The notes beneath the pieces are model-generated. The model was not told the DNA's origin, did not search any database, and saw nothing but the letters and a program-made list of their open reading frames with translations. Of a stretch of DNA of 34,722 bases, positions 4,244 through 21,073 are shown piece after piece. The DNA is taken from NCBI GenBank assembly GCA_022709565.1, contig JAKLIO010000006.1:1-34722 (forward strand). The letters are read 5' to 3'. A program made the position numbers and the translations under genes. This stretch comes from Patescibacteria group bacterium. GTDB taxonomy: Bacteria; Patescibacteriota; Minisyncoccia; Moranbacterales; GWC2-37-73. Position 1 is the first letter of the stretch, and every line of letters starts with the position of its first letter.

Positions 4244-4798
4244 CTAGTTTACTGTCACTTTCACCGGCCTTATAATTTTGTCATTCAATTTATACCCTTT
4301 CATAACTATCTTGGAGATTTTGTCTCCTATTTCTTCTTCCCGATTACCCGCCTCGACTCGCAAAGACGATTGCTCGTCGACGCGAGACGGGCTAGTTACC
4401 GATGACTGATTACTGTCATGTATCGCTTCATGGATTTCCGGATTAAATTTATCTCCCACTTTAGTTTCAATTTCAGTAACCCCGTTTTCTTTGAGAACAT
4501 TTTCCAATTGTTTTTGAATATGCATTATTCCGGTCACCCAGCCATTATTTTTTTGCTCTTCCGGAACATGATCAGTTGACATATGAAAGTTGTCGAGCAC
4601 TGGGATAATCTGCATGACAACATTTTGAGCTGAATATTTCACGAATTCTTTTTGCGCCTCAGTCTGCATTTTTTTATAGTTTTCAAAATCCGCCTGACAA
4701 CGCTTCCAACCAGCCAGATATTCATCTTCTTTAGTCGCTAATCCTTTTTCGATTTCGGCTTTCTTGTTTTTTTTATTGTCTTTGTCTTCTTTTGACAT
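4244..4798 (-). CDS. grpE: GrpE, nucleotide exchange factor of DnaK, with an in-frame insertion
   Basis: A 184-aa co-chaperone that dimerises and releases ADP from DnaK. The N-terminus is charged and disordered. The family core follows: LAGWKRCQADFENYKK, then VVMQIIPVLDNF. The C-terminal beta domain has FNPEIHEAIHD and IVMKGYKLNDKIIRPVKVTVN. Between HEAIHD and EEEIGDKI lies an atypical segment of about 23 residues that contains PSRVDEQSSLRVEAG (residues 137-151). It is encoded by a GC-rich palindrome that also occurs in mnmA. The insertion is in frame and falls in the small beta domain that contacts DnaK in characterised GrpE proteins. The upstream gene is hrcA. Confidence 0.93.
   Translation of the reverse strand: MSKEDKDNKKNKKAEIEKGLATKEDEYLAGWKRCQADFENYKKMQTEAQKEFVKYSAQNVVMQIIPVLDNFHMSTDHVPEEQKNNGWVTGIMHIQKQLENVLKENGVTEIETKVGDKFNPEIHEAIHDSNQSSVTSPSRVDEQSSLRVEAGNREEEIGDKISKIVMKGYKLNDKIIRPVKVTVN
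4346..4390 (-). repeat. Protein-embedded palindromic element, family 1 (in grpE)
   Basis: Forty-five bases, exactly 15 codons, reading PSRVDEQSSLRVEAG. The GC-rich palindromic DNA stands out from its AT-rich gene. It aligns without gaps to 20201-20245 in mnmA and is read in the same frame there. The outer arms on the plus strand are CCCGCCTCG and CGAGACGGG, with an inner GCAA/TTGC hairpin. Imperfect GATTAC copies lie on either side (4342-4347 and about 4408-4413). Confidence 0.85.
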
Positions 4799-9900: not shown

Positions 9901-10092
9901 TTTCCACTTTCTTTTTCCGCAAAATTCAAGCATTAACTTTTCTTTCTAGGATAAGAAAAGTTACAAAAGAAAGTCGCGCCGGATGAAGATACTGAGGCAA
10001 GCGCTTCGTTCTTTGCTAAAATTTCAATTCCGCTTCGCTCCTCAAAAAATTTTTTAACGCTCATCACTCGCGCTTTACCTACGTACTTCATA
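9901..10092 (+). repeat. Dispersed composite repeat, copy B
   Basis: The left part has CCACTTTCTTTTTCCGCAAA and TTCAAGCATTAAC. Then comes the hairpin AACTTTTCTT...AAGAAAAGTT and the shared body ending CGTACTTCATATGGCGC. It is nearly identical to copy C (12899-13080), and to copy A (1338-1532) on the other strand. It fills most of the 366-bp gap between cysS and the gene at 10203. Confidence 0.85.
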
Positions 10093-10102
10093 TGGCGCAC
10101 AG

Positions 10103-10141
10103 AGAATACTAAATACTAAATACCAGATACAAAATACCATT
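10103..10141. repeat. TAAATACC micro-repeat
   Basis: Tandem-like AATACTAAATACTAAATACC-type sequence. A relative occurs at 6527-6553, before yidD's stop. Confidence 0.5.
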
Positions 10142-12898: not shown

Positions 12899-13080
12899 TT
12901 AGCATTAACTTTTCTTTCTAGATAAGAAAAGTTACAAAAGAAAGTCGCGCCAGATGAAGATACTGATGGCAAGCGCTTCGTTCTTCGCTAAAATTTGCAC
13001 TTCGCTACGCTCCGTTTTAAAATTTTTTAACGCTCATCACTCGCGCTTTGCCTACGTACTTCATATGGCGCCTATAAAAT
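12899..13080 (+). repeat. Dispersed composite repeat, copy C
   Basis: Begins AGCATTAACTTTTCTTTC and continues with the hairpin arm, ACAAAAGAAAGTCGCGCC, the GCGCTTCGTTCTTCGCTAAA block, TTTTTTAACGCTCATCACTC and CTTCATATGGCGCCTATAAA. It is very close to copy B. Reading frames across it (for example 12954-13208) are not genes. Confidence 0.85.
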
Positions 13081-13350
13081 GCGATGCGGGATGCAAAACG
13101 CTGAATTTTTGCATTTCTATTCGCACTAGAAATGCGCCGATACAAATCTGCCGCGAAACGAGCGTTAAGAAATTCCTTAAACGCAGCGAAGTGGAGCAGG
13201 AATTTTAGTGAGTGAGCGAGCAGTTTGTCGCCGCATTTCTCCGTGCGAGAGTTTTCTTTCCTCCACCTTTCTTTTGCGGAAAAAGAAAGGTGGAAAATAG
13301 ATTTACTGAAGAATTTCTTACTAACTTTTCTTTCAAGACAAGAAAAGTTA
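13081..13350 (-). repeat. Diverged repeat copy D, inverted against copy C
   Basis: Read on the minus strand the order of parts is the same as in B: TTCAAGCATTAAC, an AACTTTTCTT hairpin, a second hairpin CCACCTTTCTTTT/AAAAGAAAGGTGG, AAAGAAAACTCTCGC, CACTAAAATTCCTGC, CACTTCGCTGCG and TTTCTTAACGCTC. The sequence is much more diverged. C and D together make an imperfect inverted pair filling most of the 555-bp gap between recR and rplU. Confidence 0.6.
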
Positions 13351-17185: not shown

Positions 17186-19156
17186 CTATCCCAAAATTGC
17201 CTTTATTCTCCTGACTCCCGCGCTGGATGATTCTTCCTTTTGAATCTTAAAATGCCCCAGTTCGCCGGTATTTTTGACATGCGGACCGCCGCATATTTCC
17301 CGGCTTATTATTATTGCATCATCATTGACTATGGAAAAGACAGAAACCTTGTCCCCATATTTTGCGTCGAAAACTCCCATAGCATTTGTTTTTCTGGCAT
17401 CGTCTAGCGTCATTTCTTCGCGTACCACATCCAGATGCGCTTCGATTGCCATATTGACAATTTTCTCAACTTCGGCTTTCTGTCCATCTGTCATTTTGTC
17501 CGGATGGGAAAAATCAAAACGCAGGCGTTCGGCTGTGATGTTTGATCCTTTCTGCATCACATGATTTCCGAGCACATGCCGGAGAGCCGCCAACATCAAA
17601 TGCGCGACCGTATGATATTGCACCGTTTTTTCACTTGTATCTGCCAGCCCGCCCTTGAACATTCCGGCTGAAGCCGTGCGAGAAAGTTCTTGGTGTTTTT
17701 CTATTTTATCTTTTAGCAATTCCTTACTTTCCTTAACTAATTTTTCATTTTTAGTTTTTAATAATAAATCTTCAAAAAATAATTCACTGGGATAGCCATG
17801 TGCAGTTTCTAAATCAAAAGCAATTGAAGCCGAAAGCGGAACGGCCTCCGTGCTAATAGCTTTATTTTTTATTTCATCAATTTCTTTTTCAGAAAGGCCA
17901 TGTTCTTTTGCGGTTGCCCTAAAAATTATATCGTATATTTTTTGCAGTTCTTTATTTTTAATTTTTTCTGCACTAATTAATGTTTTTTTAAATTTATTTT
18001 CTTCTTTTTCTAATTCTTCAAAAATCCTATTTTTATTTTGTTCCAATTCAGGATAATAATCTTTGTATATTTCCACCACAACTTTTGCAATTTCAGCAGT
18101 AAAATTTTTCTCCCCGCCTGCATCGCTTTGCGAAGCATTGCGGTCAGGAATTCCCAATTGCTTGCCATAACGGATGGCTCGGCGGATTAACCTGCGCAAA
18201 ACATAACCAGCCCCGACATTCAAAGGACTTACACCATCGGAAATTATAAAAGTTGCTGCTTTGATGTGGTCAGCAATAACCCGGAAGCTTTTAGCTTCTT
18301 GCTTATAGCTTTTAGAAGAAAGCTTCTCAATTTTATCAAAAATAGGTTTAAACAATTCGGTTTCAAAAACATTTTCTTTGCCATTCAGAACCGCCAAAGT
18401 CCTTTCTATGCCCATGCCTGTGTCAACATTGTGTTTCTTTAATTTCTCAATTGTTCCATCTTCCTTCTTGTTAAATTCCATGAAAACATCATTCCATATT
18501 TCAATAATGCGTCCGGAATCAACTAAATCAGAAAATTTTCCATTTATTTTTCCTTCCTCTGGTCTTGTGTCATAAAACATCTCCGAATTAACCCCACAAG
18601 GTCCCGTTGCACCAGCAATCCAAAAATTATCTCCAGCTCCAAGCGGAATAATTTTAATATTGTTTTTTATAATCTCGTCTTCACCGGAAACATCAACTTT
18701 TGTTCCTGCTTTTTCAAAAATATTTTTCCAAATCGCAATTGATTCTTCATCGCGTGGGATTCCTTCAGCTCCCTTGAATACGGTTACATATAAACGCTTA
18801 GGATCAAGTCCCAAGCCATTTTTTTTATCGGTTAAAAATTCAAAACTCCATTCTATAGCTTCCTTCTTGAAATAGTCTCCAAAACTCCAATTTCCAATCA
18901 TTTCAAAGAAAGTGCAGTGTCTATTATCTCCAACATCGTCTATATCCCCTGTTCTAATGCATTTTTGTACGTTTACAACCCTTTTGCCGCCAGGGTGCTG
19001 TTCTCCCATAAGATACGGCACCAGAGGATGCATTCCTGCTGTCGTAAAAAGCACCGATGGGTCGTTTTCCGGAATCAAAGAAGCCGAAGGGATAATAGTA
19101 TGCCCTTTGGATTCGAAAAATTTCAAATATTTTTGACGAAGTTCCTGCGCAGTCAT
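17186..19156 (-). CDS. alaS: Alanyl-tRNA synthetase, short form with an in-frame insertion
   Basis: A 656-aa class II synthetase charging tRNA-Ala. The catalytic core has KYLKFFESKGH, LFTTAGMHPLVPYL, GDNRHCTFFEMIGNWSFGDYF and GMGIERTLAVL. The tRNA-binding part has GYVLRRLIRRAIRYGKQLGI. The editing domain is complete with HTVAH and CGGPH, and the protein ends soon after at VRRIKAILG. The C-terminal DHHA1/C-Ala domain of about 200 residues is missing. PDRNASQSDAGG (residues 337-348) interrupts the conserved LGI-x-x-NFT stretch and is encoded by a hairpin. I chose ATG at 19156 with GGGAAG upstream; a GTG lies two codons earlier. It is 10 bp below the 80-aa coiled-coil gene. Confidence 0.96.
   Translation of the reverse strand: MTAQELRQKYLKFFESKGHTIIPSASLIPENDPSVLFTTAGMHPLVPYLMGEQHPGGKRVVNVQKCIRTGDIDDVGDNRHCTFFEMIGNWSFGDYFKKEAIEWSFEFLTDKKNGLGLDPKRLYVTVFKGAEGIPRDEESIAIWKNIFEKAGTKVDVSGEDEIIKNNIKIIPLGAGDNFWIAGATGPCGVNSEMFYDTRPEEGKINGKFSDLVDSGRIIEIWNDVFMEFNKKEDGTIEKLKKHNVDTGMGIERTLAVLNGKENVFETELFKPIFDKIEKLSSKSYKQEAKSFRVIADHIKAATFIISDGVSPLNVGAGYVLRRLIRRAIRYGKQLGIPDRNASQSDAGGEKNFTAEIAKVVVEIYKDYYPELEQNKNRIFEELEKEENKFKKTLISAEKIKNKELQKIYDIIFRATAKEHGLSEKEIDEIKNKAISTEAVPLSASIAFDLETAHGYPSELFFEDLLLKTKNEKLVKESKELLKDKIEKHQELSRTASAGMFKGGLADTSEKTVQYHTVAHLMLAALRHVLGNHVMQKGSNITAERLRFDFSHPDKMTDGQKAEVEKIVNMAIEAHLDVVREEMTLDDARKTNAMGVFDAKYGDKVSVFSIVNDDAIIISREICGGPHVKNTGELGHFKIQKEESSSAGVRRIKAILG
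18113..18148 (-). repeat. Protein-embedded palindromic element, family 2 (in alaS)
   Basis: Thirty-six bases, exactly 12 codons (PDRNASQSDAGG). On the coding strand CCTGACCGCAATGCTT folds onto AAGCGATGCAGGCGGG with loop CGCA (16 positions: 13 paired including two G-T, three mismatches). Removing it restores the ordinary LGI-EKNFT sequence of AlaS. It differs in sequence and length from the grpE/mnmA element. Confidence 0.8.
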
Positions 19157-19166
19157 AAGCACTTCC

Positions 19167-19789: not shown

Positions 19790-20923
19790 CTAGTTTATTA
19801 TTCCTCCCCCTAAAACTTCTCCGCTATCTCCGTAAAACACGGCTGATTGCCCGGGAGTCACCGCCTTTTGCGGTTCTGGAAACTCTACTTCAATAATACC
19901 TTTTTCCTTGCCATTTGTCACCTGTTCCTTTTTTAATATACAACGTACTTGGGGATGGCGGTAGCGGATTTTAACTTTTATTTCCAAAGGAAATTTCGGC
20001 TTGCCAGTAGTCCAATTTGTTATTTCAACCAACATTTTTTTCTTGCATATGTCCTTGTCATTTTCATCATTGGTCACGATAAGCTGATTTTTCTTAAAAT
20101 CACGACCAACCACATAATATGGTCCCGTTCCGCCAATATTAACCCCTTTTCTTTGTCCGATCGTATAAAGTTCCAGCCCTTCATGGATGCCAATTTTTTT
20201 CCCCGCCTCGACTCGCAAGACGCCTTGCGCGTCGACGCGAGGCGGGCCTTCTGTCGTTATTATATCTCCGGATGATAAATTAATATTTCGCTTGATAAAT
20301 TCACTGGGAGATTTTTCCCAAGTAAAACAAAGATTCTGAGACTCTTTTTTATTAAAAACCGGCAATTTTTTCTTCTCAGCCATTTTTCTCACTTCCGCTT
20401 TTTTATAATTTCCAATAGGAAAAAGGATCTTGCCCAACTGTTTTTGCGACAAATTATAGAGAAAATACGTTTGATCTTTTTCGCTGTCACAGGCTGGATA
20501 CAAATGATATTTACCGCCTATTTTATCTATTTTGGCATAATGTCCGGTGGCCACATAATCTGCCTTGATTTCCAGCATTTTTTTGAAAAGAAAATTGAAC
20601 TTTATTTTTTTATTGCAGACAACGCAAGGATTGGGTGTTCGTCCCGCCTTTGTTTCTTTGAGAAAATTATCCACCACTTCTTTCTTAAATTCCTTCGCCA
20701 CTTTTACGACATAAAAAGGAATTCCTAAAATTTGTGCTACTTTTCTGGCATCCTGCTGCGATTCGAGCGAACAGCATTTATTTTCCAAAGCCTGATTCTG
20801 CCCCGGTTCTTTCCAAAAATGCAGAAAAACGCCCACGACATCATAGCCTTGTTCTTTCAAAATAGCCGCCGCCATTGAGGAATCTACCCCGGCTGACATG
20901 CCCACAATAACTCGTTTTGCCAT
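19790..20923 (-). CDS. mnmA: tRNA 2-thiouridylase MnmA with an in-frame insertion
   Basis: About 377 aa. It adds sulfur to U34 of tRNA-Lys, -Glu and -Gln. The PP-loop reads VIVGMSAGVDSSMAA (SGGVDS with one Gly changed to Ala). The catalytic Cys pair is NPCVVC and QNLCF. The YTIGQRKGVNIGG and AVTPGQSAVFY motifs are standard. PPRVDAQGVLRVEAG (residues 227-241) splits the conserved GDIITTEG-KKIGIHEG segment. It is encoded by the palindrome also seen in grpE. I chose the ATG at 20923 (MAKRVIVGMS); an upstream start would add 13 residues that lie in a structured leader. The gene appears monocistronic. Confidence 0.95.
   Translation of the reverse strand: MAKRVIVGMSAGVDSSMAAAILKEQGYDVVGVFLHFWKEPGQNQALENKCCSLESQQDARKVAQILGIPFYVVKVAKEFKKEVVDNFLKETKAGRTPNPCVVCNKKIKFNFLFKKMLEIKADYVATGHYAKIDKIGGKYHLYPACDSEKDQTYFLYNLSQKQLGKILFPIGNYKKAEVRKMAEKKKLPVFNKKESQNLCFTWEKSPSEFIKRNINLSSGDIITTEGPPRVDAQGVLRVEAGKKIGIHEGLELYTIGQRKGVNIGGTGPYYVVGRDFKKNQLIVTNDENDKDICKKKMLVEITNWTTGKPKFPLEIKVKIRYRHPQVRCILKKEQVTNGKEKGIIEVEFPEPQKAVTPGQSAVFYGDSGEVLGGGIIN
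20201..20245 (-). repeat. Protein-embedded palindromic element, family 1 (in mnmA)
   Basis: Forty-five bases, 15 codons (PPRVDAQGVLRVEAG). On the plus strand CCCGCC/GGCGGG, TCGAC/GTCGA and CGCAAG/CTTGCG form nested stems with an ACGC loop. The grpE copy (4346-4390) aligns without gaps and in the same frame. The GC content is far above the surrounding gene. Confidence 0.85.
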
Positions 20924-20935
20924 TTTTGTCTGTGA

Positions 20936-21073
20936 GGCACGAACAGCTACAAAAATGAGCATCCCGTGCCAATTCTATCTACTTAACTATTATTAACCGC
21001 TTTTTCAAGCCGCAGGCGGTTCCGTACAAAAATCTTTCTTTAAAGATTAGCTTTTTCGGAATTTGGCACTGGG
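20936..21073 (-). promoter_or_regulatory. Structured leader upstream of mnmA with competing stems
   Basis: CCCGTGCCAATTC (20963-20975) pairs over 13 bp with GAATTTGGCACTGGG (21059-21073, two bulged T). The pair encloses two hairpins, AACCGC/GCGGTT and AATCTTT/AAAGATT, giving a three-way junction. The same CGTGCC (20965-20970) can instead pair with GGCACG (20936-20941), close to the start codon. These two states exclude each other, as in an attenuator or translation switch. No T-run follows the second stem. A promoter could not be placed with confidence. Confidence 0.5.

Follow-up and report, generated by a model that had tools for sequence, protein, structure and literature searches.

Short GC-rich palindromes in frame within mnmA, grpE and other housekeeping genes of Patescibacteria, probably mobile DNA hairpins

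In-frame mobile palindromes have been documented mainly in Rickettsia and Wolbachia, and mobile DNA that makes protein segments in essential genes is regarded as peculiar to the Rickettsiales and some REP-bearing bacteria. The Rickettsia palindromic elements (RPEs) are palindromes of 100-150 nt that are found in frame in many unrelated, often essential genes, at tolerant sites (PMC3767692). REPs are also known from within genes, notably from uvrA, uvrB and other repair genes, and the CGTC REPs are without a dedicated transposase (Di Nocera 2013, PMC3733652). What defines a REP is its GTAG or CGTC tag and, in many cases, an associated RAYT.

The window analysed here (the whole stretch of DNA, 34,722 nucleotides, from a Patescibacteria group bacterium of the order Moranbacterales) contains two copies of a palindrome, termed PE1, which is GC-rich within a window of 39% GC and lies in frame in mnmA and in grpE (Table 1). 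PE1 resembles RPEs and the Wolbachia palindromic elements (together RPE/WPE) in being a dispersed palindrome (folding, 22 copies in its own genome, stem covariation), in its in-frame position in named, unrelated genes (85 coding copies, 80 of them divisible by three in length), in the presence of several unrelated families per genome and in same-site insertions in relatives. Regarding the insert sites, exact gaps were seen against solved MnmA and AlaS structures, and a loop of variable length in GrpE. Unlike RPE/WPE, PE1 is GC-rich, occurs in Patescibacteria, has many of its non-coding copies in the 5' fragments of tRNA genes, next to GIY-YIG genes, and is short (35-47 nt, and 36 nt for the second family PE2, compared with about 100-150 nt for RPE). 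The likeness to Rickettsia palindromic elements drawn in the original prediction holds in behaviour, i.e., many copies, in-frame positions in unrelated genes and empty sites in relatives; that PE1 works like RPE/WPE is a likeness of behaviour and does not imply membership.

Table 1. Palindromic inserts in the window and the genes that carry them (window positions).
Feature	Position	Strand	Support
PE1 in mnmA, 45 nt, in-frame insert PPRVDAQGVLRVEAG	20202..20246	-	15-aa gap vs 9hln/2hma; orthologues; DNA empty site vs L194
PE1 in grpE, 45 nt, in-frame insert PSRVDEQSSLRVEAG	4347..4391	-	absent from family orthologues
mnmA (tRNA-specific 2-thiouridylase), PE1 host, 390 aa, frame open across insert	19790..20962	-	
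grpE, PE1 host, 184 aa, frame open across insert	4244..4798	-	
PE2, 36-nt palindrome unrelated to PE1, in frame in alaS, encodes PDRNASQSDAGG	18113..18148	-	exact 12-aa gap vs AlaS 1riq
alaS (alanine--tRNA ligase), PE2 host, frame open across insert	17186..19162	-	

The two copies share orientation and codon phase relative to their genes, as had been proposed, and lie one base higher than first reported (20201-20245 and 4346-4390). They are 82% identical at the DNA level over 49 nt, and the sequence of the 45-nt element is CCCGCCTCGACTCGC..loop..CGACGCGAG(G/A)CGGG. The PE1 strand folds with -18.1 kcal/mol, compared with -10.4 kcal/mol for shuffled sequences (z = -4.1; 0 of 200 shuffles). Alignment of the solved MnmA chains (9hln/2hma) showed a gap of exactly 15 residues at the insert. 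Among the 16 other family genomes with an MnmA orthologue spanning the site, 15 were without insert (...GDIITTE^GKKIG...) and one had a different insert. Distant orthologues had no residues matching the inserts at the two sites. The differing orthologue, from genome G018 (L228:1909-1953), carries 15 other residues at exactly the PE1 site, and its DNA holds a perfect 20-nt palindrome CTTTGTGCCGGCGCACAAAG. The family orthologues of GrpE likewise lack the insert, the loop at this site being variable in length.

The own-genome assembly (742 kb, 68% complete) yielded 18 places in a BLAST search with the mnmA copy, the other 17 with E values from 2e-4 to 6e-12; since the genome repeats PE1 at significant E values, the pair in the window is not due to chance. 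A covariance model (R1) built from these 18 copies found 22 distinct places in the own genome, and the further copies on which the original prediction had been staked are thus present. R1 matched 15 of 19 family genomes (E<=1e-3) and 40 of 131 genomes of the order (E<=1e-6; maximum 47 copies per genome), and matches were obtained in only 9 of 380 genomes of the phylum, the own genome counted. The distribution is patchy even within genus g7, with no copy in G016 and 14-19 copies in G013. A pattern with exact arms was found in at least 110 stretches of GTDB species genomes, and the matches listed belong to Moran-, Kaiser-, Zambryski-, Gottesman-, Woese-, Buchanan-, Doudna- and Kuenenbacteria, a Paceibacter and other Patescibacteria or 'bacterium' bins, with no Rickettsiales among them. 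(Note that one match, L171, is titled Burkholderiales, a title treated as doubtful, as its GC content of 32% does not fit.) The invariance of the arms in these copies is partly by construction, because the pattern demands identical arms; the arms of the own-genome copies, which were found without this demand, are nearly invariant as well. A viral, phage or plasmid vehicle was rejected, as no PE1 match was found in viral contigs with the exact pattern or in plasmids and phages with blastn.

A set of 171 distinct PE1 copies (35-47 nt) was assembled, in which the genomes of CG23 and RIFOXYA12 are over-represented; copies are not equal to independent events, and since some orthologues have copies at the same site, which may be inherited, copies overcount events. 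Copies were classed as coding when a hexamer model, for which long ORFs from these loci had served as the training set, called both flanks coding; this is a statistical call. On this basis 85 copies lie within coding frames of conserved genes and 86 elsewhere, so that the expectation of protein-borne copies applies to about half of them. Lengths divisible by three were found in 80 of the 85 coding copies, compared with 60 of the 86 others (Fisher p = 4e-5). Among the five coding copies that depart from this rule are some in short or doubtful ORFs and the nested one in L062. The consensus is open in all six frames. Frame F0 (PASTRGDDRSSTRGG) is used by 45 coding copies and frame R2 (PPRVDERSSPRVEAG) by 24, together 69 of 85 (p = 1.6e-19), whereas the non-coding copies use the frames roughly evenly. 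When the count was reduced to ORFs of >=250 aa and one copy per orthologous site, F0 or R2 accounted for 51 of 62 copies (p = 3e-15), and 60 of 62 were divisible by three. The peptides of the two favoured frames (PASTR..STRGG and PPRVD..RVEAG) have net charges of +1 and 0, whereas those of the four avoided frames range from +2 to +4. This bias in length and frame is the signature of a filter on translated peptides.

Nucleotide variation lies in the loop, alike in F0, R2 and non-coding copies, which makes the DNA or RNA hairpin, and not the peptide, the conserved unit. The peptide pattern put forward at the outset is not a fixed one: six frames are open, two of them strongly preferred. Given where the variation lies, the peptide seems to be tolerated and not selected for, in line with what had been assumed; the further suggestion that the element spreads because of its peptide is unsupported.

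The coding hosts are unrelated housekeeping genes, often essential. Those named by NCBIfam are GlmS, PrmC, TopA, GatB, LCP, RecJ, NrdG, TatD, Fpg, UvrA, UvrB, UvrC, RecG, Elp3, a copper-type ATPase, HolB, TrpS, Lgt, RmlB, Pth, PolA, DusB, SecD, SecA, YchF, LeuS, CCA transferase, PEP synthase, ArgS, GyrB, MurE, RsmH, thioredoxin reductase, a Xer-like recombinase, MiaA, PNPase, a UvrD/PcrA helicase and TruB. Genes of repair and tRNA modification are conspicuous among them, an impression taken from the list of names. In the TatD family nuclease of three loci from different genomes (L040, L116, L170), PE1 lies near one site in opposite orientations (R2, F2), owing to either repeated insertion or inversion. 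Two gyrB genes (L135:3031-6042 and L148:1181-4645) are matched by a profile that contains an intein; in each, PE1 lies in the extein, but the two sites differ.

The insertions are precise. For 40 filled PE1 sites a gap-free empty site was available in a relative, and the palindrome had been added exactly, with neither duplication nor loss; these sites include mnmA at the DNA level (compared with L194), and the two gyrB genes are reciprocal, each being empty where the other is filled. In L058 and L062 a further palindrome is nested inside a PE1 copy, in both cases at TCGA^C. The junction is a purine^pyrimidine (R^Y) step in 39 of 85 coding and 68 of 85 non-coding copies, compared with 22% of background dinucleotides, the non-coding figure being too high on account of host tandem repeats that contain TACG (CG^TA and TA^CG). 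PE1, at 36-45 nt, consists of arms of 15 and 14 nt around a variable loop and forms an imperfect hairpin of invariant asymmetry, the arms pairing to the last base. In a sample of 55 distinct 45-mers the inner stem covaries: the two pairs that close the loop have Watson-Crick partners in 96 of 110 cells, compared with 61 expected (0 of 20,000 shuffles), with exchanges from G-C to A-T on both sides.

A second palindrome, PE2 (CCTGCCCGCAATGCTTCGCATAGCGATGCAGGCGGG), came to light through the GrpE alignment. Its length is 36 nt in 39 of 41 copies; 22 of the 41 were classed as coding, 20 of these in frame F0, and a PE2 model matched 57 of 124 genomes of the order. PE2 is without R^Y preference (9 of 41 junctions). 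It occurs twice in the GrpE of G014 (L247) and once in that of G016 (L244). When hairpins were scanned for additional families, only minor repeats or repeats resembling terminators turned up. The window also has a longer interspersed repeat, about 120-180 nt in size (TAACTTTTCTTTC..GATAAGAAAAGTTAC..), which lies between genes at 1348-1528, 9932-10113 and 12921-13082, the three copies being 73-98% alike.

Regarding the 86 non-coding copies, 21 lie inside the 5' fragment of a tRNA gene (blastn against intact tRNAs), at tRNA positions 7-23 in 19 cases and 34-35 in two. Most of these belong to a recurrent unit in which the PE1-bearing fragment is directly followed by a small GIY-YIG ORF, after which comes the intact tRNA of that kind, as in L011 (own genome, tRNA-Glu), L072, L111, L121, L139, L142 and L156. 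A unit of this type, with a palindrome in the tRNA fragment, is also present in L152. The unit resembles a mobile nuclease aimed at tRNA genes. ARAGORN, applied to flanks of 150 bases with PE1 excised, found no tRNA across any junction. In L140:7139-7184, PE1 lies inside a sequence that looks like an additional, incomplete copy of a 5S rRNA gene's 5' end.

Taken from genome comparison, the most satisfactory explanation, and very probably the correct one, is that PE1 is a non-autonomous mobile DNA hairpin which is filtered after insertion by protein tolerance. On this view each new copy of the element is inserted as one exact unit that neither duplicates nor deletes target sequence; purine^pyrimidine steps are favoured, and insertion apparently takes no account of genes. 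Copies in coding sequence would persist only if a length that is a multiple of three is combined with a permissive loop and a suitable frame, i.e., one with a near-neutral, hydrophilic, Pro/Gly-bounded peptide, which would then be translated as part of the host protein. That targets are not duplicated, that the hairpin is imperfect and asymmetric and that copies can be nested suggests single-strand chemistry, and a trans-acting enzyme may recognize the hairpin form in single-stranded DNA, e.g., at replication forks or during DNA uptake.

Such an enzyme could be a single-strand transposase of the Y1/HUH class (RAYT or IS200/IS605-like) that mobilizes a REP-like PE1 in trans through its hairpin, and the absence of target-site duplication, the invariant asymmetry and the insertion of palindrome into palindrome are expected of single-strand hairpin transposition. 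RAYT-sized Y1 genes (about 230 aa) are found in several element-rich genomes (e.g., G101, G104, G107). PE1 further shares with the GTAG/CGTC REPs its similar size as a short palindrome, intragenic copies in uvrA, uvrB and repair genes and, with CGTC REPs, the lack of a dedicated transposase, and with IS200/IS605-derived MITEs the hairpin ends and the duplication-free insertion (40 precise empty sites). This origin is nevertheless rather unlikely, since none of the 16 Y1/RAYT-like genes examined in genomes of the order is flanked by PE1 or PE2, the copy-rich genomes G013, G015 and G017 are without Y1 transposase genes, and neither a conserved tetranucleotide in the flanks of the hairpin nor an unpaired GTAG/CGTC motif at its end was found. 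The fetched Y1 loci contained no full-length transposase-bearing element sharing the PE1 ends. In the own genome a single Y1 transposase came up, an IS200-like gene at a contig edge (G000:C23:5-349, L019). Unlike GTAG/CGTC REPs, PE1 has no unpaired tag at either end, shows no RAYT linkage (REPtron 0/16) and has about half of its copies inside coding frames, with two dominant frames; unlike the MITEs, it is a hairpin throughout, for which no related transposase gene or terminal sequence was found. Y1/RAYT was rejected as the obvious mobilizer, as neither gene presence nor the flanks of the 16 genes examined gave a link.

Homing nucleases of the GIY-YIG type might instead cut tRNA and other sites, hairpins being captured at the breaks so that insertion is a by-product. 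Of about 18 GIY-YIG ORFs, 13 start within about 80 nt downstream of an element, compared with 0.2 expected (in loci fetched by the DNA pattern), and the layout of tRNA fragment with PE1, nuclease ORF and intact tRNA of the same kind is in line with this idea. It is improbable all the same, because GIY-YIG genes are present in all 19 family genomes, PE1-free ones included, most coding-site insertions have no such gene nearby, other units carry different palindromes or none (by eye, different ones in the tRNA fragments of L180, L184, L186 and L188), and the tRNA fragment may be merely a redundant, permissive target. The association is read as palindromes landing in such a target with a real preference, rather than as proof that the nuclease moves them. 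The strength and covariation of the hairpin, together with the same-site copies common to some orthologues, could also indicate a module that functions as RNA or as protein, e.g., as a regulator, terminator or mRNA stabilizer, and is kept for the benefit of the host gene; this is quite improbable in view of the unrelated hosts, the varying sites within genes and the majority of orthologues without PE1. A known RNA family was rejected for PE1, as Rfam gave no match within the window. Removal of the element from the transcript, such that the protein never contains the PE1 peptide, might be suspected from a strong hairpin flush with the element boundaries, but would require neither lengths divisible by three nor a preferred frame; both biases are strong and count against it, and this explanation is extremely improbable.

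The reading of PE1 as a mobile hairpin filtered by protein tolerance can, tentatively and with more doubt than confidence, be extended to a guild of several unrelated hairpins in Patescibacteria (PE1, PE2 and, at the MnmA site of a relative, at least one other). Their precise, duplication-free insertion might depend on a mobilizing activity that is neither Y1/RAYT nor a described transposase, and may repeatedly have added segments of 12-15 residues to core proteins of repair, translation and secretion across the radiation.

No prior description of such elements was found for Patescibacteria, CPR, Parcubacteria or Moranbacteria in open-licence PMC papers, as the original prediction had supposed. 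Inserts of the PE1/PE2 type should be treated by annotators as mobile DNA and not as lineage-specific functional motifs. The filled and empty PE1 sites amount to a large natural data set on which protein sites tolerate insertion, and the long-standing question of how palindromes move is now testable, because the insertion unit, the junctions and nested copies are defined. The high copy number and the occurrence of at least two unrelated families in Patescibacteria imply that the phenomenon evolved or spread in another lineage with reduced genomes. As judged from these sequences, a second deep branch of the bacteria seems to draw on mobile DNA for new protein material, with about 15 amino acids added each time.
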